From Sabulicella rubraurantiaca (GTDB taxonomy: Bacteria > Pseudomonadota > Alphaproteobacteria > Acetobacterales > Acetobacteraceae), in assembly GCF_017355885.1 (NCBI RefSeq), contig NZ_JAFEUU010000007.1, forward strand, positions 1-64,000: a stretch of 64,000 nucleotides of DNA, written 5' to 3'. Each line of letters opens with the position of its first letter. The first letter of the stretch is position 1. Shown one piece after another: positions 1 through 10,548 of this stretch. The notes beneath the pieces are model-generated. The model did not search any database. It saw only the letters and a list, made by a program, of their open reading frames with translations, and had not been told where the DNA came from. The position numbers and the translations under genes are program-made.

Positions 1-96
1 TTCATCGCCTCTATTGTCTGGGCCGATCATGCTGGATCGGTAGCATGGCCTCACTCCCGCAGCACGGGACCCACCGAGAGCCAAAGGACCCAGACC

Positions 97-405
97 ATGA
101 CCACCATCTCCTCCCCCGCCCCCGCCTCCCTCGCCCTGTCTGACGCGCAGCTGGATGACGTGGCCGGCGGCATCAGCCTGGGCGGCGCCATCGGCCTGGG
201 CGCGGGCATCATCGCGGGCGGCGTCCTGGTGGCGGCCACCGGCGGCCTGGCCGGCGGCATGATCGCGGGCATCATGGCCGGCATGACCGAGGCCACCTTC
301 GCCACCATGGCCGCGGCCCCCACCGTGGGCGCCGTGGTGGGCGGGATCGTCGGCGCGGGTGCGGGCGGCGTGGTGGGCGAGCAGATCGGCTCCTCCCTCG
401 GCTGA
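97..405 (+). CDS. Double-glycine leader microcin-like peptide 1
   Basis: This is a 102-residue peptide. Its N-terminal 25 residues look like a bacteriocin export leader: a polar stretch, then LSDAQLDDVAGG ending in Gly24-Gly25, where a C39 peptidase would cut. The predicted 77-residue core has no cysteine. It is almost all Gly, Ala, Val and Ile, with many GxxxG-type spacings and small-residue zippers, which suggests membrane-inserting helices. An RBS-like AAAGGAC lies just before the ATG. A similar peptide gene follows after 79 nt, and a peptidase-containing exporter lies downstream, so export by that system is inferred. No modification enzyme of a known RiPP class is adjacent. The exact family was not recognised. 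Confidence 0.75.
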   Translation: MTTISSPAPASLALSDAQLDDVAGGISLGGAIGLGAGIIAGGVLVAATGGLAGGMIAGIMAGMTEATFATMAAAPTVGAVVGGIVGAGAGGVVGEQIGSSLG

Positions 406-484
406 AACACGCCTTCGCCCCGCCTCCTCACGAGGCTTCTTCTTCCATTCCTCCCATCACACCCCTTTCGCAGGAACCATCCCC

Positions 485-757
485 ATGACGCAGATCACCT
501 CCCCCGCCGCTGGCCTGGCCCTGACCGACGACCAGCTGGACGCCGCTTCGGGCGGCATCGGCCTGGGCACCTGGATTGGCGCGGGCGTCGGCCTCGTGGC
601 CGGTGTGGCGCTGACCATCGCCACCGCGGGCGCCACCGCGCCGCTGCTGGCCGAGGCGGGCGTCACCATGGCCAGCATCATCGCCACCGGTGCCACCACC
701 ACCGCAGGCCTCACCGCCTCCGGCGCTCTCGTCGGAACCGCCGCTGGAGGGATCTGA
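485..757 (+). CDS. Double-glycine leader microcin-like peptide 2
   Basis: This is a 90-residue peptide whose leader, LTDDQLDAASGG ending at Gly23-Gly24, closely matches that of the preceding gene. The start is the ATG at 485, which follows an AGGA-type ribosome site. An upstream in-frame extension runs through the first peptide gene and is rejected because it would bury the leader. The core of about 66 residues lacks cysteine and is rich in Gly, Ala and Thr, with GxxxG motifs. It differs in sequence from peptide 1, so the two may form a two-component bacteriocin (inference). A strong hairpin follows about 30 nt after the stop and separates the peptides from the exporter genes. Confidence 0.75.
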   Translation: MTQITSPAAGLALTDDQLDAASGGIGLGTWIGAGVGLVAGVALTIATAGATAPLLAEAGVTMASIIATGATTTAGLTASGALVGTAAGGI

Positions 758-785
758 AACCAGCACCAAAGGCCAATCCGAAGTG

Positions 786-815
786 CCGCGCGGGCGATGG
801 GTCCGCGCGGTTTCT
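786..815 (+). terminator. Terminator-like hairpin after the peptide genes
   Basis: A perfect 8-bp stem, CCGCGCGG at 786-793 and 803-810, with a 9-nt loop is followed by TTTCT. It sits between the second peptide gene and the exporter. Partial termination here would give more peptide mRNA than exporter mRNA (inference). Confidence 0.6.
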
Positions 816-949
816 CCTGTGTCCATACGGGAATTCCCGGCCTTGTGGCTCGCCTCATGATGGTTTGAAGACTGCCGGAGAATGGTTTCCCTTCCCGAAT
901 TGCATTGCGGCTCCGGCCATCCCTCGCGACTTTTCTCAGGGTGGTGGCG

Positions 950-2209
950 GTGAGCGCGTCCACTCTGTTCCGCGAGAAGGCGCTCGCGCGCCTCGCCGCG
1001 CCGGAGGAGCTGGAGCAGCGCATCCGCATCGTCCCGCCACTGGGCTGGGCGGCACTGCTGACCTGCGCGGTGCTGCTGGCGGCCGCCCTGGCCTGGGGCA
1101 TCCTCGGTACCTACCGCATGACGGCAGCAGGGCAGGGCGTGCTGGTCCAGGCCAATGGCATGTTCGTTGGGATCAACGCCCCCAAGTCGGGCTGGCTGGA
1201 GCATCTGGCCGCCACGGGGGAGCGCGTCGAGCAGGGTGCGCTGATCGCGCGGCTGCGCGCGCCGGAGGAGGATGCGCGCGTCGCCGGGCTGGAGGAGCGG
1301 CTGCGAGAGCTGCACACCCAGGGCGAGGCGGTGCGCGCGCGCTACGCCGAACGCCTGTCGCAGGAAGAGCAGGCGGCGGCCACGCGCCGGCGCGGCCTGC
1401 AGGAAACGGCGGGCCTGACCGCAAGCCGCATCACCGAGCTGGAGAACCTGCTCCGCACGCGCGAGGGGCTGGCGGGCAGCGGCCTCGTCACCACGGAGCG
1501 CGTGGTGGACGTGCGCGAGCGGCTCTTCGCCGCGCGCGAGGCGCTGTCGCGCACCCGCACCGACCTGGATTCGCTGGAGGCGGGTCTGCTTTCGCTCCGC
1601 GCCCAGCGTGACGCGGAGGTGGAGGGCCTCGCGCGGCAGGAAGTGGAAGTGCAGGGGCAGCTGGACCAGGCGCGGCTGTCGCGCAGCCTCGCCACCGAGA
1701 TCCGCGCCAGCGTCGCCGGGGAGGTGGTGATGACACCGGCCACGCGCTTCTCGCTGGTTTCCGCCGGGCAGCGACTGCTGGTGGTCGAGACCGGTGAGGA
1801 GACGCTGGAGGCGCTGCTCTTCGTTCCGGCCGACGCGGGCAAGCAGGTCCGCCCCGGCATGGAGGTGCGGCTTTCGCCCAGCACGGCGCGGCGTGAGGAA
1901 TACGGCGCCCTGGTCGGCACGGTGCACAGCGTGTCGCCCGTGCCGGTGTCGCAGCAGGAGGTGGCGGACCTCCTCGCCAATCAGGACCTCGCGCGGCAAC
2001 TGGCGGGGGACCGTGCGCCGCTGCTGGTGCGTGTCGCGCTGCGGCCAAGCCCGGCGCCGGGCTCTGCCAATCCCTATGCCTGGACCTCGAGCAAGGGCCG
2101 CGAGGTGACGGTGGAAAACGGCATGCTGGTGGCGGGCGACGTCACCGTGCGCGCCGCACCGCCGATCGAGCTCGTCATCCCCGCGCTGCGCCGGTGGACG
2201 GGGCTGTGA
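950..2209 (+). CDS. HlyD-family periplasmic adaptor of an NHLM-type bacteriocin exporter
   Basis: This membrane-fusion protein is expected to bridge the inner-membrane ABC transporters to an outer-membrane exit. From the GTG at 950 it has 419 residues. It begins with a short cytoplasmic head (LFREKALARL), then one membrane segment at about 32-53, a biotinyl-lipoyl-like half, a long Arg/Glu-rich coiled coil at about 100-230, a second lipoyl half and a C-terminal beta domain. The ending, with a PPIELVIPALRRW stretch, resembles the adaptor subgroup of NHLM bacteriocin systems (TIGR03794 type). A TTG at 905 could extend the N-terminus by 15 residues, but the GTG gives the family-like beginning. 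The next gene overlaps its 3' end by 16 nt. No outer-membrane TolC-like gene is in the window. Confidence 0.85.
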   Translation: MSASTLFREKALARLAAPEELEQRIRIVPPLGWAALLTCAVLLAAALAWGILGTYRMTAAGQGVLVQANGMFVGINAPKSGWLEHLAATGERVEQGALIARLRAPEEDARVAGLEERLRELHTQGEAVRARYAERLSQEEQAAATRRRGLQETAGLTASRITELENLLRTREGLAGSGLVTTERVVDVRERLFAAREALSRTRTDLDSLEAGLLSLRAQRDAEVEGLARQEVEVQGQLDQARLSRSLATEIRASVAGEVVMTPATRFSLVSAGQRLLVVETGEETLEALLFVPADAGKQVRPGMEVRLSPSTARREEYGALVGTVHSVSPVPVSQQEVADLLANQDLARQLAGDRAPLLVRVALRPSPAPGSANPYAWTSSKGREVTVENGMLVAGDVTVRAAPPIELVIPALRRWTGL

Positions 2210-4335
2210 CGCCCACCATTCTGCAGATGGAGGCGACCGAGTGCGGCGCCGCCTCCCTGGCCATGGTGCTGGCCCATCACGGGCGCTGGGTCCCGCTGGA
2301 AGAGATGCGCGTTGCCTGTGGCGTGTCGCGCGACGGCAGCCGCGCCAGCCACCTGCTGCGCGCCGCGCGGCGCTACGGGTTGGAGGCGAAAGGCTGGCGC
2401 GTCGAGCCCGAAGGTATCGCTGCGCACAGGCTGCCCGCCATCGCCTTCTGGGAGTTCAACCATTTCGTCGTGGTGGAGCGGCTGGAGCGGAACGGGGTGC
2501 GGATCATCGACCCCGCCTCCGGCCCGCGCCTCGTGCCGCATAACGAATTCGACTCCGCCTTCACTGGTGTGTTGCTGGTCTTCGAGCCAGGGCCGGATTT
2601 CGCACCGGGCGGGGCGAAGCCGCGTCCGCTCGCGGCCGCCCTGTCCCGCCTCGCCTCGGCGCGCGAAGGGCTTGCCTATCTCGCCATCGCTGCCGCGCTG
2701 GCTCTGCTGCCCGCGGTGGCGGTGCCCGCCGCGTCCAAGATCTTCGTGGATGACGTGCTGGTGCGCGGCTTCGAAGGATGGGTGAGGCCGCTGCTGCTCG
2801 GCCTCGCCTTCGCGGCGCTGCTGCGCGGTGGGCTCACCTGGCTGCAGGAACACGCGATGGCGCGGCAGGAACTGGCACTGGGCGCCGGGTTCGGGCTGCG
2901 CTTCTTCCGGCACATGCTGCGCCTGCCTACTGGGTTCTTTGCGCAGCGCTATGCAGGCGACCTCGCTTCCCGTGCCTCTGCTGCCTCGGAAACCGGGCAT
3001 CGCGTGGGGGCGGAGGCGACGGCGCTGCTCGCCGCCGCCCTGGCCGTGCTGTTCCATCTCGGCCTCATGCTGCTCTACGACCCGGTGCTGACGATAGTCG
3101 GGGTCATGGTGGCGCTGCTGAACGCGCTGGTGGTGCAGGGCGTGGCGACGACGCAGCGCGAAGCGACGCGGCAGGTGGCACGCGAGGGGGCGCGCATGGC
3201 CGCTGTGTCCGTCGGCGGCATCCAGGCAATCGAGACGCTGAAGGCGGGTGGGCTGGAAGCGGATTTCTTCGGCCGCTGGGCTGGCCTGCAGGCGCGGCTG
3301 CTCAATGCGCGGCTGCGCCTGCAGCTTCCCGCCCTGGCGCTGGATCTTCTACCGACACTTCTCGCGGGTCTGGGGATGGCGGCCGTGCTGGGGCTCGGCG
3401 CGCTGCGCGCCATGGACGGCGCGATCACCATCGGGACGCTGGTCGCCTTCCAGGCGCTGCTTTCCGGCTTCTTCGGCCCGGTTCAGGCACTCACCGGCGC
3501 GACAGCGCGGCTGCGCGCCTTGCAGGGCGAGGTGGAGCGTGTGGAGGACGTGGCGGCGGCACAGCCCGATCCGCGTCTCCTGCCCGGAACCACTCCTTCC
3601 GGCCCGGCGGCGCGGCTGTCTGGACAGGTGGAGATGCGCGGACTCGCCTTCGGCTATTCGCCGCTGGAGGCGCCGCTGATCCAGGATTTCAGCCTGCACC
3701 TGGAGCCTGGGGCGCGCATCGCGCTGGTGGGCGCATCGGGAAGCGGGAAATCCACCATCGCGCGGCTCCTTGCCGGGCTTTATGACCACTGGGCGGGTGA
3801 GATCCTGCTGGATGGCCGCCCGGCCGCCTCGACCTCGCGCGATGCGGTGGCGGCATCGCTGGGATTCGTGGATCAGCAGGTCGCGCTGTTCCGCGGCACG
3901 GTGCGGGAGAATTTGACGCTGTGGGACGACACCATCCCCGAGGCGGATATCCTGGCCGCCGCGCGCGATGCCTGCCTGCACGAAGTCATCCTGGCGCGGC
4001 CCGGCGGCTATGACGGGACCGTGGCAGAAGGCGGCACGGATCTGTCGGGCGGGCAGGCGCAGCGCCTCGAGATCGCCCGCGCCCTGGTGCACCGGCCGAG
4101 CCTCCTGATCCTCGACGAGGCGACCTCCGCCCTCGATCCGGTGGTGGAGGCGCGGCTACTGGCAAATCTTCGTCGGCGGGGCTGCACCACGCTGGTGGTC
4201 GCGCATCGGCTTTCCACCATCCGAGATTGCGACGAGATCCTGGTGATGGAGCGCGGGCAGGTCGTGCAGCGCGGCGACCACGCGACGCTGATCGCACAGC
4301 CCGGCCCTTATGCCGAACTGGTGCGCGGGGCATGA
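2194..4335 (+). CDS. Peptidase C39 ABC transporter (NHLM type, peptidase/permease/ATPase)
   Basis: This 713-residue bacteriocin-processing transporter (PCAT) would cut leaders after Gly-Gly and pump out the core. The N-terminal C39 peptidase has Gln11 (oxyanion), Cys17 in ATECGAAS, His90 in EFNHF and Asp106 in IIDPASG, so it appears catalytically complete. A six-helix membrane domain spans about 160-440. The ATPase domain has Walker A GASGSGKST near 512, signature LSGGQAQR near 616, Walker B LLILDEATSAL near 638 and the H-loop near 669. The GTG start overlaps the adaptor gene, and its TGA overlaps the next ATG, so the three genes appear translationally coupled. The gene order and domain plan match TIGR03796-type proteins. 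Confidence 0.92.
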   Translation: MDGAVTPTILQMEATECGAASLAMVLAHHGRWVPLEEMRVACGVSRDGSRASHLLRAARRYGLEAKGWRVEPEGIAAHRLPAIAFWEFNHFVVVERLERNGVRIIDPASGPRLVPHNEFDSAFTGVLLVFEPGPDFAPGGAKPRPLAAALSRLASAREGLAYLAIAAALALLPAVAVPAASKIFVDDVLVRGFEGWVRPLLLGLAFAALLRGGLTWLQEHAMARQELALGAGFGLRFFRHMLRLPTGFFAQRYAGDLASRASAASETGHRVGAEATALLAAALAVLFHLGLMLLYDPVLTIVGVMVALLNALVVQGVATTQREATRQVAREGARMAAVSVGGIQAIETLKAGGLEADFFGRWAGLQARLLNARLRLQLPALALDLLPTLLAGLGMAAVLGLGALRAMDGAITIGTLVAFQALLSGFFGPVQALTGATARLRALQGEVERVEDVAAAQPDPRLLPGTTPSGPAARLSGQVEMRGLAFGYSPLEAPLIQDFSLHLEPGARIALVGASGSGKSTIARLLAGLYDHWAGEILLDGRPAASTSRDAVAASLGFVDQQVALFRGTVRENLTLWDDTIPEADILAAARDACLHEVILARPGGYDGTVAEGGTDLSGGQAQRLEIARALVHRPSLLILDEATSALDPVVEARLLANLRRRGCTTLVVAHRLSTIRDCDEILVMERGQVVQRGDHATLIAQPGPYAELVRGA

Positions 4336-7115
4336 GCGGGATCGCGCCCGAGGCGCCGCTTCACCCGGCAGGCACCGGCCCCTTCACCCCGACCGGGCCG
4401 CTGGTCATGGATGGCGGCGGGCTGTGGTTCGTCGTGGAAGCCGGCGCGCTGGAGCTGCGGCTGAGCCCGTCCGGCCAAGCCGGGCTTTCCGTGCCGCTGC
4501 TGCGCGTCGCGGCAGGCGGTGTCGCGCCGTGCCTGGGCAACGCGGAACATCCGGTGCGCGCCTGGCCGGAGCCGGGAACGCGGCTGCGCCCCGTGGCCCC
4601 GGAAGATGCGGAGGCAGCGCTGCTGCCCGCACTGGAGGCGTGGCTCTTCGCCCTGTTGCGCGTGGCCTCTCCAGCCCCTCCGCCCGAGCCCGCGCTTCCG
4701 GCGGAAGGCGAGGCATTGGCCGAGGCCACGCTGCTGCGCCCGCGCGAGGGCGTGGCTTGGGCGCTTGTTGAAGCCGGTCGGCTGGAAGAGCCGGACGCCG
4801 CCGGCCCCGCCATTGGTCCTGGCGAGGTCGCGCCCTTGCCGGCGGCTGGGCCGGGCATGCTCGGCCTTCCTGGAACGCGGCTGCGGTACCTGGACCGGTC
4901 TTCGCTCCTGGCCGGGGGACAGCTTCCGGCGGCGCTGGAGCGGTTCCACGCTGCCTGCCTCACGCGGCTCGCCGCTGCTTCCCAGCGAGAGGAAGAAAGC
5001 CTCAGCAGCCGCATCGCCGAGCGGGCACGCAGTGGCGATGCCCACGCCGCCGCGGCGGTGGCGATGCTGGCCGGGCAGGGGGGCAAGACGCAGGAGGTCG
5101 GCGAAGGCGAGGGGTTGCGTGACGCGCTGCAGCGCATCGCCCGCGCCCTGGGCGTCCCGGCGGAAGGCGCCGCACGTGCCCCCGAGCGGACGAAAGACCG
5201 GCACCGCGCCGTCCTGGCCGCTGCGGAGGGGTTCCGGCTTCGCGCGCGCCGCGTGCGGCTGGAGCCGGGATGGCGCCGCCGGGCGGAGGAGCCCTTCCTG
5301 GGTTTCCTGGCCGCCGATGGCAGTCCGTTGGCGCTGCTGCCCGGGGAGCGAAAGCCGGCCGAGGCAGAACTCGAACCCTTCGGCTACAGCCTGTCGCCAA
5401 TGCTGCCGGACGTGAAGCTGGGCGCGCGGGCACTGCTGCGCCTGGGGTTGCTCGGTGGGCGGCGGGAGCTGACGACGATCCTTCTCGTTTCGCTGCTCGC
5501 GGGTCTTCTTGGGCTGGCCACGCCCTATGCGACCGGATTGCTCTTCGAGAGCATCATCCCGGCCAGCGCGCGCGGTGAGCTGGCGCAGATCCTGGCCGGG
5601 CTGGCGGCTGCGGCGGTGGGTGCCGGCGTGTTCGGCCTCGTGCGCGGATTTGCCCTGCTGCGCCTCGCCACCACGGTGAATGCGCGGCTGGAGGCCGCGA
5701 TCTGGGACCGACTCCTGCGCCTGCCGGTTTCCTTCTTCCGGGGCCGGCAGGCGGCCGACCTCGCCATGCGCGCCGATGCGGTGAACCAGATGCGCGAGGC
5801 GGCGAGCGGCACGGTGGTCGGCACCGCCCTGGCGGCGCTGTTCGGTGCGCTGAATTTCGCGCTGCTGCTGCACTATAGCTGGCGCCTCGCCTTGGTCGCG
5901 CTCGGCCTCGCGCTGGTGCAGGCGCTGGTGATGGTGGCGGCCGCGCTGGTGCAGCTGCGGCTGCGGCGGCGCCTGCTGGATGCCTCGGGCCGTGTCCGCT
6001 CCCTGGCGCTGGAGCTGGTCGAGGGCATCTCCAAGCTACGCGTCGCGGCGGCTGAGGATCGGGGCTTCGCCCGCTTCGCGCTGGCCTTCGCGGAGGAGGC
6101 GCGGCTCGCGTTGCGCACCCGGCTGGTGTCGGGCGGCGTCTCGACCTTCGGCGCGCTCTGGGGAACTCTCTCCACCGGCGTGCTGATCGCGGCGGTCGGG
6201 CTGGGCTGGGCGCAGGTGGGGATTGGCGACTTCGTCGCCTTCAGCGCCGCCTTCGGCCAGTTCACCTCCGCCCTGCTGTCGCTTGCCGGGGTGCTGCCCT
6301 CTGTCCTGGCCCTCGTGCCGCTCTATGAGCGCGCCCGCCCCATCCTCGAGGCGGTGCCGGAGGATGCGGGGATGCGGGGCGACCCCGGGACGCTGCGCGG
6401 CGTGGTGGAGCTTCAGGGCGTCACCTTCCGCTACGCGCCGTGGCTTCCCCCGGCCCTGGACCAGGTGACCCTGCGCGCCGCTCCGGGCGAGACGGTGGCG
6501 CTGGTCGGGCCCTCCGGCTCCGGCAAGTCGACCGCGCTGCGCCTCCTGCTGGGTTTCGAGGCGCCAGAGGCCGGGGCCGTGTTCCTGGACGGACGCGACC
6601 TTGCCGGGCTCGATCCGCGCGCGGTGCGGCGGCAAATGGGCGTGGTGCTCCAGCGCGGGCGGGTGCTGGCCGGATCGCTGCTGGAGAATATCGCCGGCGG
6701 CGTGCCGATGAGCGCAGAGGAGGCGATGGCAGCGGCCCGCGCCGCCGGGCTGGAGCCGGACATCGCCGCCATGCCGATGGGGCTGCACACCATGCTGCCC
6801 GAGGGCGGCGGCACCTTGTCGGGTGGGCAGCGGCAGCGGCTGATGATCGCCCGCGCCCTGGCCCATCGCCCGCGTATCCTCCTGCTGGACGAGGCGACCA
6901 GCGCCCTCGATAACCCGACGCAGGAGGTGGTGACACGCAATCTGGAGGCGATGGGCGTAACCACCATCGTCGTCGCGCACCGCCTGTCCACCGTGCAGCG
7001 CGCCGCGCGCATCTACGTGATGGACGGGGGAAAGGTGGTGGAGGAAGGGCGGTTCGAGGAGCTGATGGAGGCCGGGGGCCTGTTCACCCGCCTCGCGGCG
7101 CGGCAGCTGGCCTGA
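4332..7115 (+). CDS. Second NHLM-type ABC transporter with long N-terminal domain
   Basis: This 927-residue protein has roughly 390 residues of soluble N-terminal region, then an ABC membrane domain at about 400-680 and an ATPase domain. Walker A GPSGSGKST lies near 725, signature LSGGQRQRL near 828, Walker B RILLLDEATSAL near 850 and the H-loop near 884. There is no C39 cysteine motif. This plan matches the second, non-peptidase transporter of NHLM bacteriocin systems (TIGR03797 type), thought to act with the peptidase-bearing partner. The ATG at 4332 is chosen because it forms an ATGA overlap with the preceding gene; the in-frame upstream extension lies wholly inside that gene. The N-terminal region has no motif I can name. 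Confidence 0.9.
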   Translation: MSGIAPEAPLHPAGTGPFTPTGPLVMDGGGLWFVVEAGALELRLSPSGQAGLSVPLLRVAAGGVAPCLGNAEHPVRAWPEPGTRLRPVAPEDAEAALLPALEAWLFALLRVASPAPPPEPALPAEGEALAEATLLRPREGVAWALVEAGRLEEPDAAGPAIGPGEVAPLPAAGPGMLGLPGTRLRYLDRSSLLAGGQLPAALERFHAACLTRLAAASQREEESLSSRIAERARSGDAHAAAAVAMLAGQGGKTQEVGEGEGLRDALQRIARALGVPAEGAARAPERTKDRHRAVLAAAEGFRLRARRVRLEPGWRRRAEEPFLGFLAADGSPLALLPGERKPAEAELEPFGYSLSPMLPDVKLGARALLRLGLLGGRRELTTILLVSLLAGLLGLATPYATGLLFESIIPASARGELAQILAGLAAAAVGAGVFGLVRGFALLRLATTVNARLEAAIWDRLLRLPVSFFRGRQAADLAMRADAVNQMREAASGTVVGTALAALFGALNFALLLHYSWRLALVALGLALVQALVMVAAALVQLRLRRRLLDASGRVRSLALELVEGISKLRVAAAEDRGFARFALAFAEEARLALRTRLVSGGVSTFGALWGTLSTGVLIAAVGLGWAQVGIGDFVAFSAAFGQFTSALLSLAGVLPSVLALVPLYERARPILEAVPEDAGMRGDPGTLRGVVELQGVTFRYAPWLPPALDQVTLRAAPGETVALVGPSGSGKSTALRLLLGFEAPEAGAVFLDGRDLAGLDPRAVRRQMGVVLQRGRVLAGSLLENIAGGVPMSAEEAMAAARAAGLEPDIAAMPMGLHTMLPEGGGTLSGGQRQRLMIARALAHRPRILLLDEATSALDNPTQEVVTRNLEAMGVTTIVVAHRLSTVQRAARIYVMDGGKVVEEGRFEELMEAGGLFTRLAARQLA

Positions 7116-7217: not shown

Positions 7218-7538
7218 ATGGGCCGGATCCGATGCTCGCGCAGCTGGGGTGTCCGTCAGTCGCTCATCGTCGCGACGCTGAGCGGGTCCGCCCTGCTTGG
7301 CCGTGCGCGACTGCGCTTCTCGGGATCGGGGGTCAGCCTCGAGGTACTCAATCGCCGCGCCGAAGAGGTAGATGTCGCGATCGAGATCGCCGGGGATGCC
7401 GCGATCGGCCCGCGCAGCCTCCTGCTCGACGTGGATGGAAGTCTCCACGAGATCCCGGGCCTCTTCACCGTCGCTGCGCCGGTATGGAGTTCCTCCTCCG
7501 GTGCCGGGTCGCACGGCATCGGCAGTCACCTGCTGTGA
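7218..7538 (+). CDS. Hypothetical protein coupled to the DUF6734 gene
   Basis: This is a 106-residue protein of unknown family. Third codon positions are strongly G/C, as in neighbouring genes, and a regular alternating pattern around residues 30-80 (RARLRFSGSGVSLEVLNR, then VDVAIEIAG) suggests a small beta-rich domain. The tail is Ser/Gly-rich. The ATG at 7218 is preferred; an in-frame start at 7143 would add 25 residues of poor composition. Its stop overlaps the GTG of the next gene as GTGA, which implies translational coupling and a shared task. It may belong to the secretion locus because it lies about 100 bp downstream on the same strand. Confidence 0.5.
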   Translation: MGRIRCSRSWGVRQSLIVATLSGSALLGRARLRFSGSGVSLEVLNRRAEEVDVAIEIAGDAAIGPRSLLLDVDGSLHEIPGLFTVAAPVWSSSSGAGSHGIGSHLL

Positions 7539-8425
7539 GACGCGCCGTCTGGTCATTCTGGTCCAGGCCCTACCGTGCCTACTACCACCGCGCCTGGCAT
7601 TCGGACGCGACGCACCTTTTGTCCTGGGCGCTCTCGGTGACCGAGGCGTCGCGCCGCTACCCGCTGACCTGCCTGCATGCCGACAGCGCCGGCGCCGAAC
7701 TGCTTGTCGACCGGCTGGGGCTGCCCTTCCGGCAGGTCGAGCTGACGCTCGATGCTCTCGATGCGGAGGAGGATGTCGGGTGGTGGGTGCTCGGCAAGCT
7801 CAGCACCTACGCCGCGCAGACCGAGCCCTTCATCCATCTCGACGGCGACGTCATCCTGTGGAGGCCCCTCCCGCCACATGTCACGGCGGCCGCCGTCTTC
7901 GCGCAGAACCCGGAGCGCTTCAGCTTCGGCGACCAGTCCCTGTACCGGATCGACGCCTTCATGCAGGGCATCGCCAAGGGTGGCGGCTGGCTGCCTCCGC
8001 AGTGGGCGGAGTATGCGGGGCGACAGGCCAATCGGGCGATCTGCTGCGGGATCCTGGGCGGCAACGACGCGGCCCTGGTCGCCCGCTATGCGGAGCTGGC
8101 GATGGAGGTCATCCGCCACCCCTGCAACCGGCCGATCTTTCCGTCGCTCGGCGTGCGCGACAACATCCTGGTCGAGCAGTATTTCCTGGCTGCCTTCCTC
8201 GACTGGCAGAATCGCCAGGCGCCGGAAGCGGCGCCGCGGGTCGGCTTCCTGTTTCCCTCCTCGAACGATGCGTTCGACCCGCGCGAGGCCCAGAGCGTCG
8301 GCTACACCCACCTGATCGGCGACACCAAGGCCAATCCTGACGTCGCGGCGCGCCTCGCCGCCCGCGTCCGGCGCCAGAATCCGCGGTTGTACGAAGCCTG
8401 CATGATCGCCGCGGAGAGATGGTGA
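7535..8425 (+). CDS. DUF6734 family, glycosyltransferase-like protein
   Basis: This 296-residue protein starts at a GTG that overlaps the stop of the preceding gene by 4 nt. The beginning (AVWSFWSRPYRAYYHRAW) and the segment EPFIHLDGDVILWRPLP resemble the DUF6734 family. The DGD within that stretch is placed like the metal-binding DxD of GT-A glycosyltransferases, so a nucleotide-sugar transferase role is plausible but unproven. No signal peptide or membrane segment is visible, so it should be cytoplasmic. Its place after a peptide export operon leaves open that it modifies the exported peptides or another local substrate (inference only). The long in-frame extension upstream to 7232 is out of register with the coding signal of the overlapping small gene and is rejected. 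Confidence 0.75.
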   Translation: MRRAVWSFWSRPYRAYYHRAWHSDATHLLSWALSVTEASRRYPLTCLHADSAGAELLVDRLGLPFRQVELTLDALDAEEDVGWWVLGKLSTYAAQTEPFIHLDGDVILWRPLPPHVTAAAVFAQNPERFSFGDQSLYRIDAFMQGIAKGGGWLPPQWAEYAGRQANRAICCGILGGNDAALVARYAELAMEVIRHPCNRPIFPSLGVRDNILVEQYFLAAFLDWQNRQAPEAAPRVGFLFPSSNDAFDPREAQSVGYTHLIGDTKANPDVAARLAARVRRQNPRLYEACMIAAERW

Positions 8426-9382: not shown

Positions 9383-9973
9383 TTAGGCAGCGGCCTGCCC
9401 GCGCCTCACGAAGCCCAGGCCGAGCAAACCCAGCGCCAGGAAGGCGAATCCCTCTGGAGCCGGTACGGCAATGGTGGTCTGGCCAGGAGAGGGGGGCACA
9501 GCTTCAAGACCGACCCCATAAGAACCGCCTGCATAAGGTGGGAAGCCGGCATCGCCGAACGGGGAGCTTCCCGGTAGGCCATCTTGCCCGCCCTGGTGCA
9601 AAGATTGGTCGGATTGCGACAAGCCTTCGCTGTCACTGGGGAATAGGAGGCTGAAGCCGAGGAGACGAACCGCCTCATCGATCCGCCAGGACCTGACTTG
9701 GATGTTTCCCTCCGCGTCGAAGTAGGACCCGCCGTAATTGATCCGGAGATCGAAGCTGCCCTTGGGCGCTTCCGTCATCGCCGCGAGCGGCCCTAAGGAC
9801 TGGCTCATGTCGCGCCCTGGATTGGATATGTTGGGGTTTCCACTAACAGGGCTGCCGTGAGGGAATCCAACTGGCAGGCTCCCCCACGGTGCTGCCTGCG
9901 CAACGCCCGCCGCGATGCTGGGTGCTGTCAAAACTGATACCAGTGCAGCGATGCGGGCTGATCTCCAGGACAT
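9383..9973 (-). CDS. PEP-CTERM sorting-domain protein
   Basis: This is a secreted protein of about 196 residues. An N-terminal signal peptide (RSARIAALVSVLTA, cleavage near AQA-AP) is followed by a low-complexity Gly/Ser/Pro-rich middle. The C-terminal tail begins VPAPEG, continues with a hydrophobic helix (FLALGLLGLGF) and ends in RRGQ. This is the layout of a PEP-CTERM signal, recognised and cut by exosortase in organisms that make extracellular polysaccharide. No exosortase lies in this window. A second in-frame ATG at 9985 is possible; the one at 9973 has the better-spaced GGGA. The middle region has no recognisable domain. Function is unknown beyond surface display or release. Confidence 0.75.
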   Translation of the reverse strand: MSWRSARIAALVSVLTAPSIAAGVAQAAPWGSLPVGFPHGSPVSGNPNISNPGRDMSQSLGPLAAMTEAPKGSFDLRINYGGSYFDAEGNIQVRSWRIDEAVRLLGFSLLFPSDSEGLSQSDQSLHQGGQDGLPGSSPFGDAGFPPYAGGSYGVGLEAVPPSPGQTTIAVPAPEGFAFLALGLLGLGFVRRGQAAA

Positions 9974-10548
9974 GAAACATCCCATTCATTTCTTAACGAG
10001 ATTGCAACCCTAGCATTCCTAATGAGGGATTGTGCAAGGTATTAGACAAAAAGAGCCCTTGTGCCCGGGTCGGTCAGGTCTTCTAGTGGAGAGTGTTGAA
10101 TTCACTTTCGAAATCGAAGCCAAGGCTTGCGCAAATTATGATGGAGCATGCTTTTTCCGACTCGCCACGCAGTTCTGGCGTGGGCTTGCGGTGGTGACGA
10201 ATTGGCTCAGCGCGAACGCAGCAATTCTACTTCCACCAGATCGCCTGATGATTGATGCCGGCAGCTTTAGCTTGGTGGGGCGGGGCGGCTACAGCGCTTC
10301 GATCCAGCAGGCAGCAGCCCGTCTTGACGGTCCGAGCCCCAGCTCAAGGGTTTAGACCGCTCCGCTTCTTCGATCCGGTACTTATTCGTTTGTCATGCGG
10401 CCTGAGTATCCGCGCATCGCGTTCATGGGTGCACAACGCAAAACTGCGATGGCCACCAATACTCGCGGCCAAAGCCTGCGCTGGCCGAACCGCCTTGCAG
10501 AAGTTTCCCCGGCGTGGCTGACGACGCCTTCAGCCCACGCGCTGCAGC
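9974..10548. other. Gene-poor stretch of about 570 bp, possibly decayed DNA
   Basis: Short open frames exist on the plus strand (10032-10355 and 10252-10521), but codon use is irregular, third positions are not G/C-rich as elsewhere, and no domain or ribosome site supports them. Composition is visibly less GC-rich than the flanks. No terminal inverted repeats or target duplication were found. It also contains the promoter region of the PEP-CTERM gene at its left edge. A decayed mobile element or gene is possible; I see no intact feature. Confidence 0.5.

Follow-up and report, generated by a model that had tools for sequence, protein, structure and literature searches.

What might an NHLM exporter carry when the two genes in front of it encode small, cysteine-free peptides rich in glycine zippers? 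The question is raised by the beginning of a 64,000-nucleotide stretch of Sabulicella rubraurantiaca DNA (Acetobacteraceae; NZ_JAFEUU010000007.1, positions 1 to 64,000), hereafter the window, in which precursor genes A and B precede a complete NHLM export set. An earlier note, made from the sequence alone, had proposed a possible two-peptide microcin system. The reading favoured here, with roughly even confidence and by analogy with Caulobacter, is a glycine-zipper system resembling Cdz, with an NHLM exporter and a dispersed repertoire of precursor genes, its likeliest role being that of a membrane-active, probably contact-dependent bacteriocin. A literature search, judged from titles and abstract openings, returned no publication recognisably on this system.

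Precursor peptides A and B

Both precursors are encoded on the forward strand. Precursor A (97-405; 102 residues) consists of a 25-residue leader (97-171) and a 77-residue core (172-402), and precursor B (485-757; 90 residues) of a 24-residue leader (485-556) and a 66-residue core (557-754). The leaders end in SDAQLDDVAGG (A) and TDDQLDAASGG (B), letter for letter as first quoted, and the claim that the cores are cysteine-free also holds, the count being zero in both. LahT, a C39 protease, reads leader positions -12, -7 and -4 (PMC6363468). In A these are Leu, Leu and Val. Among 15 A and B leaders, Leu stands at -7 in every one and at -12 in 13, the exceptions being Met at C58 and Phe in the B gene at C5 (contig numbers are those of the analysis; the window begins at base 1 of C62). 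Position -4 is Val, Ile or Leu in 13 of the 15 and Ala in two B copies, those of C62 and C61. The leader motif ends in Gly-Gly in 15 of 15 sequences, a figure to be read with the fact that the script itself cuts at Gly-Gly.

The GxxxG enrichment described by the earlier note stands firmly for A and more weakly for B. Against 10,000 composition shuffles, the A core has 13 GxxxG motifs where 6.3 are expected (p 0.0005) and nine GxxxGxxxG where 1.7 are expected (p 0.0002). The B core has five GxxxG against 2.6 (p 0.08) and three GxxxGxxxG against 0.46 (p 0.018). Gly, Ala, Val and Ile make up 71% and 64% of the two peptides, which are near-neutral and rich in small residues. By eye, the Pro and Glu residues of A sit between its two zippers, and the A C-terminus, GEQIGSSLG, forms a polar tail.

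Comparison of the window with Roseococcus sp. MDT2-1-1, the second species discussed below, gives ratios of nonsynonymous to synonymous substitution rates (dN/dS) of 0.05-0.16 for A and 0.19-0.35 for B (two methods); other paralogue pairs give 0.15-0.54. By these ratios, A and B look like maintained proteins under purifying selection. The cores had been described as different, yet they are probably paralogous: in three A-B pairs, with 2000 shuffles each, 0, 4 and 193 shuffles reached the observed core score, the last count not being significant. Neither peptide matches a Pfam family up to E 1. Matches to NCBIfam models all stay below the cut-off (best E 0.097 for A, 0.5 for B), one of them to TIGR03898 on the A leader (E 0.16) and none to an NHLP or Nif11 model, which bears out the statement that the leaders are neither nitrile hydratase-like nor Nif11-like. 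A profile of A found no match among solved structures.

The export machinery

Three adjacent genes follow on the forward strand. They encode a HlyD-type membrane fusion protein (905-2209; TIGR03794, 233.5 bits, cut-off 156.2), an ABC transporter with an N-terminal C39 leader protease (2194-4335; TIGR03796, 966.6 bits, cut-off 853.3; PF03412, 2.4e-34) and a second ABC transporter lacking the protease domain (4332-7115; TIGR03797, 788.8 bits, cut-off 709.4). Each exceeds its curated cut-off, so the NHLM exporter is complete. The HlyD gene starts with the TTG at 905 or, if Roseococcus sp. MDT2-1-1 is taken as the guide, with a GTG near 941. The C39 domain, at about 2212-2595, has the LahT protease 6mpz as its best solved match (1.2e-44), and its Cys, His and Asp align with the LahT triad residues named in PMC6363468; the full export set with an intact C39 protease had thus been correctly recognised.

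Only one of 83 TIGR03796 matches in the S. rubraurantiaca genome is above the cut-off, and one TIGR03794 match reaches E 1e-30 or better. A TolC-type channel is encoded apart from the exporter (one of four genome matches is above the cut-off), and the cores are possibly exported through such a channel encoded elsewhere. Between B and the HlyD gene, a GC-rich forward-strand hairpin followed by TTT (785-813) has a minimum free energy of -23.9 kcal/mol (z -3.7; 1 shuffle in 200 does as well). The stem is kept in the Roseococcus counterpart (-24.6, z -2.6; 4 of 200 shuffles). It might be an attenuating terminator that holds exporter expression below that of the peptides.

A conserved unit in a second species

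The start of the window is collinear with contig C4 of Roseococcus sp. MDT2-1-1 (G012; called a congener in the analysis) across window positions 37-7111, at 87% identity over 7,114 columns. The conserved unit runs promoter, A, B, HlyD, C39-ABC, ABC, the second ABC transporter closing it; its 5' edge is judged from the Roseococcus side, the window having only 36 bases ahead. Downstream of the unit, no protein pair is common to both exporter loci (to 16,000 in the window; within the 20-kb locus in Roseococcus). Neither a tailoring enzyme nor a regulator is found within 37-7111.

A gene family dispersed through the genome

The S. rubraurantiaca genome, a 5.0-Mb draft that is 99% complete, holds about nine A and five B genes, some 14 in all, at about nine loci, together with one such exporter. 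These counts are approximate because in two of the three repeat copies no more than the beginning of A can be seen, along with B in part or in full. The first 127 bases of the window are found again, unchanged, where three further contigs end, C24, C36 and C9. Two contigs begin with the sequence of B, C61 (97% of 285 bases) and C34 (96% of 122 bases). Overlaps of 127 bases join the window to C61, C61 to C34, and C9 to both C24 and C36, with 136 bases between C24 and C36. The 127-base overlaps indicate an assembly graph broken at a repeat, and, by sequence, the window's own pair, with which C62 begins, is probably one of three near-identical copies. Since the contig break lies inside this multi-copy repeat, the upstream neighbour of the window's A gene is not fixed by this assembly.

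Further loci comprise an A-B pair at C63:184-185k and a B gene with a degenerate A at C5. Lone A genes, with no B-type match nearby, lie at C63:198k, C58, C31 (with an altered end) and C14 (truncated). Roseococcus sp. MDT2-1-1 has two A-B pairs, one with an exporter and one without. A precedes B at all five loci where both are on one contig, namely C62, C63 and C5 (degenerate A) in S. rubraurantiaca and C4 and C18 in Roseococcus. The earlier note had looked for homologues always paired beside NHLM genes. The A-B-exporter order is indeed kept in the second species; 'always' fails, there being four lone A genes and an exporter at only one A/B locus of the S. rubraurantiaca genome, all the others lacking one. 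Homologues occurring singly without an exporter had been named as grounds for doubting the proposal, and single A genes away from the exporter do exist.

The neighbourhoods of some copies hint at mobility. A serine recombinase is common to C63:185k and Roseococcus C18 (67% identity), lying 0.2 and 2.6 kb from the pair (L020:7247-7945, L054:9654-10346), and an integrase is common to Roseococcus C4 and C63:198k (64%), 0.1 and 1.3 kb away (L053:10937-11587, L021:8039-9148).

A common upstream element

What the scattered A genes share is the sequence ahead of them. In the window the element spans 13-54 on the forward strand, before the A start codon, with the dyad ATYG-N7-CGAT at 13-27 and TGGCCTCAC at 46-54. 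Aligned A upstream regions contain three islands: CTATCG, the dyad and TGGCYTCAC. All 11 regions have the dyad, 78-85 bases ahead of the start (shuffle mean 0.03); the 11 comprise eight fetched loci and three contig-end copies that are mutually identical here. CTATCG is absent at C63:198k and C58, and TGGCYTCAC at C58.

A stricter form of the element, AATCGNNTYCAGCGATG, occurs six times in the 5.0-Mb genome, and a reversed-pattern control occurs zero times. Each of the six sites precedes an A gene on the same strand by about 80 bp, and the six A genes are diverged. Because the pattern was derived from these genes, their matching is by construction; the informative part is that nothing else matches. 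The triplicated copies, the window's included, have a diverged dyad and fall outside the stricter form. Common descent of duplicated promoters or selection for co-regulation could explain the sharing equally well. A sigma-54 promoter at TGGCCTCACTCCCGCA was considered and dropped; by eye, the alignment loses the GG-N10-GC spacing in diverged copies.

Distribution

Confirmed A/B homologues are limited to two species. The A model matches two of 60 relatives, S. rubraurantiaca itself and Roseococcus sp. MDT2-1-1. Among 397 family genomes it matches four, of which these two are confirmed; the other two, G266 and G398, are marginal (E 8e-4 and 6e-4) and have no tblastn match to A or B. In a phylum sample the A model matches one of 398 genomes, that of S. 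rubraurantiaca. In a class sample the B model matches two of 385, the same genome and G633 (a 364-residue frame, 6e-7). A scan of genome contigs gave at least one relative among the matches listed, the Roseococcus contig. A plasmid search gave no A or B match, and viral contigs no confirmed match.

An NHLM HlyD is found in 33 of the 397 family genomes (37 matches), and 35 other Acetobacteraceae NHLM loci were fetched from 31 genomes other than those of the two species. Glycine-zipper candidates are present at none of the 35, with or without a coding-bias condition, by a filter that recovers six of six control loci, although several of these loci end at contig ends where zipper peptides could be overlooked. 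The cargo at the S. rubraurantiaca locus accordingly looks like a special adaptation. Under a strict leader motif, other double-glycine peptides occur at six of the 35 loci, none of them zipper-like. Another Acetobacteraceae NHLM locus (L125:2836-5410) encodes a cargo of a different kind, possibly unmodified: four short double-glycine peptides that are poor in Cys and have no zippers.

An exporter of the same lineage (HlyD 74%, C39-ABC 76%) is found in another genus (L119), where its contig is 5.7 kb long and the genome 78% complete. That contig has no convincing A or B match, and a transposase-like gene, presumably IS5-like, lies directly upstream of its exporter (2988-3782), where A and B would be expected. 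A congener, G009, has a distant NHLM HlyD match (30%) containing two TAG codons (G009:C3:340782-341969, L122) and no A match.

Neighbouring genes

Proteins with TPR repeats that may be regulators, or may be there by coincidence, occur within 5 kb at three of 14 loci. They adjoin an orphan pair (L054:7448-9052) and an orphan B (L018:259-2316), one of them carrying a Trans_reg_C domain, and a third relative is 4.7 kb from the C5 pair. A family of binding-protein-like proteins (32-37%) is likewise common to three of the 14 loci within 5 kb. One upstream context of the triplicated pair lies at the C24 end (G000; L140:4976-9753) and closes with several genes, the first of which presumably encodes a phage-baseplate-like protein. 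Downstream of the conserved unit, the window encodes a DUF6734 protein (7232-8425) that the Roseococcus exporter locus does not share. The product of 9383-9985, which has no Pfam hit and is also absent from that locus, ends in what is presumably a PEP-CTERM-like sorting signal.

Comparison with known systems

An unmodified peptide pair in an alphaproteobacterium had been thought unusual, and the precedent is CdzC/CdzD of Caulobacter crescentus, a two-protein glycine-zipper bacteriocin that is probably unmodified and is exported by a type I system (PMC5380434). Like it, the S. rubraurantiaca system is alphaproteobacterial and has two small, probably unmodified zipper proteins, leaders ending in G[G/A/S] and type I export. 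The published features of Cdz-like proteins include a length of 60-151 residues, that leader ending, and one or two zippers that have Pro or charge on their flanks and not within them (PMC5380434); of four such features, assessed partly by eye, A shows all and B three, the fourth concerning the C-terminus, where A ends in GEQIGSSLG and B in GTAAGGI. The likeness is drawn from these features; in the account given in PMC5380434, BLAST with CdzC and CdzD themselves gave no hits. The two systems differ in three respects: the exporter here is the three-gene NHLM type, the unit contains no recognised CdzI-like gene, and there is one exporter for about 14 genes at about nine loci, against the one to three toxins per system reported for Cdz (PMC5380434). 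Cdz-like systems are also marked by type I secretion genes homologous to CdzAB within 10 kb; the type I genes adjoining A and B are of the NHLM type. In a control genome of Caulobacter vibrioides, which may or may not carry cdz, TIGR03794 is without a match and TIGR03796 without one above cut-off.

On the exporter side, all three proteins belong with NHLM systems, and the end of the leader, LSDAQLDDVAGG, is similar to ELSDEQLDAVAGG, the NHLP motif (PMC2887384). A and B nevertheless differ from NHLP and Nif11 precursors in matching neither model, in having Cys-free Gly/Ala zipper cores and in lying in a unit without a modification enzyme. LahT, of the AMS/PCAT group, is similar in its protease, in the number of precursors per exporter and in the leader positions, which most A and B genes keep. 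It differs in that the Lah precursors have Nif11-type leaders and belong to one lanthipeptide cluster, whereas those here are dispersed and have short leaders (PMC6363468).

Function and alternatives

In the favoured reading, A and B are precursors of the double-glycine kind and probably undergo no modification. The C39 domain would cut both after Gly-Gly, and the exporter, with an unlinked TolC channel, would deliver the cores, of 77 and 66 residues, to the surface. By analogy with CdzC and CdzD, the helices would pack there through their GxxxG faces and aggregate, and the cores would disrupt the membranes of unprotected neighbours, acting on contact and not by diffusing. Genes for self-protection would lie elsewhere, and the scattered A-B pairs and lone A genes would make the repertoire of the single exporter wider or more varied.

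A possible extension, held only tentatively, is that the repertoire is a dispersed, co-regulated set of weapons. A-B cassettes with their own promoter element and without exporter or immunity gene, some beside site-specific recombinases, would all feed one NHLM machine, and strains would differ in the surface zippers that they show and tolerate, a hub-and-spoke form of kin recognition.

Several observations weigh against the Cdz-like reading. Its main difficulty is the missing immunity gene: none is recognisable in the conserved unit, and no CdzI-type small membrane immunity protein was recognised there or as a small protein common to the A/B loci. In a comparison of 14 A/B loci and contig ends, proteins other than A and B encoded within 5 kb are common to three at most. 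The gap that follows B contains two open reading frames of 23-24 codons in both species (797-868 and 882-953 in the window), which are too short for a usual immunity protein and are unlikely to have that role. Pairing of A with B is not obligatory, given the four lone A genes and the degenerate A beside the C5 B. The B leader keeps Leu at -12 and -7 and has Ala rather than Val, Ile or Leu at -4, and the B C-terminus, GTAAGGI, lacks a polar tail. Lys and Arg are wholly absent from both window cores, which are therefore not cationic. AlphaFold predicts helices for both peptides, but the confidence is very low, at a mean pLDDT of 52.0 (A) and 49.5 (B), and the models give no support for a fold. 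The Cdz authors also describe immunity genes as harder to identify (PMC5380434).

The same missing immunity gene, with the many copies, the single A genes and the near-neutral, small-residue-rich composition, fits structural or adhesive peptides, whose zipper cores would form non-toxic surface aggregates or fibres serving as matrix or in cell-cell adhesion or kin aggregation. CdzC itself makes surface aggregates (PMC5380434). This reading is nonetheless rather unlikely, because confirmation in two species only and the recombinases by some copies look more like weaponry than housekeeping matrix, and the kept A-B order would be better explained by a two-part agent.

The class IIb bacteriocins of Gram-positive bacteria are pairs with GxxxG motifs and double-glycine leaders; they have cationic mature peptides, both of which are required, and an immunity gene that adjoins the structural genes. 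A freely diffusing two-peptide bacteriocin acting in this mode, or as a microcin, would account for two GxxxG peptides with double-glycine leaders and a linked C39 exporter. It is quite improbable here: the class IIb likeness drawn in the earlier note falters on window cores devoid of Lys and Arg, on the absence of a recognisable immunity gene in the unit, on a Gram-negative exporter and on unpaired A genes, and such very hydrophobic cores would be unlikely to stay dissolved.

Modification of Ser and Thr by an enzyme encoded elsewhere, which would make A and B ribosomally synthesised and post-translationally modified peptides, has only a slim chance. In its favour, it was by way of NHLP precursors, thought to be modified, that the NHLM export cluster came to light (PMC2887384), and Ser and Thr do occur in the cores. 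However, a search confined to the conserved unit found no tailoring enzyme, the lack of Cys excludes lanthionine and thiazole, and neither peptide matches an NHLP or Nif11 model. Self-directed lysis or programmed death has the slightest chance of all: the Neisseria Nap peptides are, like A and B, double-glycine bacteriocin-like peptides of a Gram-negative linked to a C39 peptidase, they show no detectable antimicrobial activity, and the lack of a recognisable linked immunity gene here would suit their self-lysis role, but Naps are short and cationic, use a FapF-related export channel and have an immunity-like napI in their island (PMC11798529), and nothing here points to self-toxicity.

Implications

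Several precursors per exporter are already known, as with one to 12 NHLP copies per genome (PMC2887384) and nine Lah precursors (PMC6363468). What is unusual here is the combination of exporter and cargo together with a hub-and-spoke layout, in which one exporter is accompanied by scattered precursor genes with a common upstream element. The system brings together contact-dependent bacteriocins with glycine zippers and an NHLM export machine for precursors thought to be modified, each of which had been described without the other. The common element makes the A/B set findable, and loss of the one exporter should silence all its members. If A and B are active, NHLM exporters would serve unmodified surface toxins too, and a single exporter could serve a promoter-tagged family spread over the genome.

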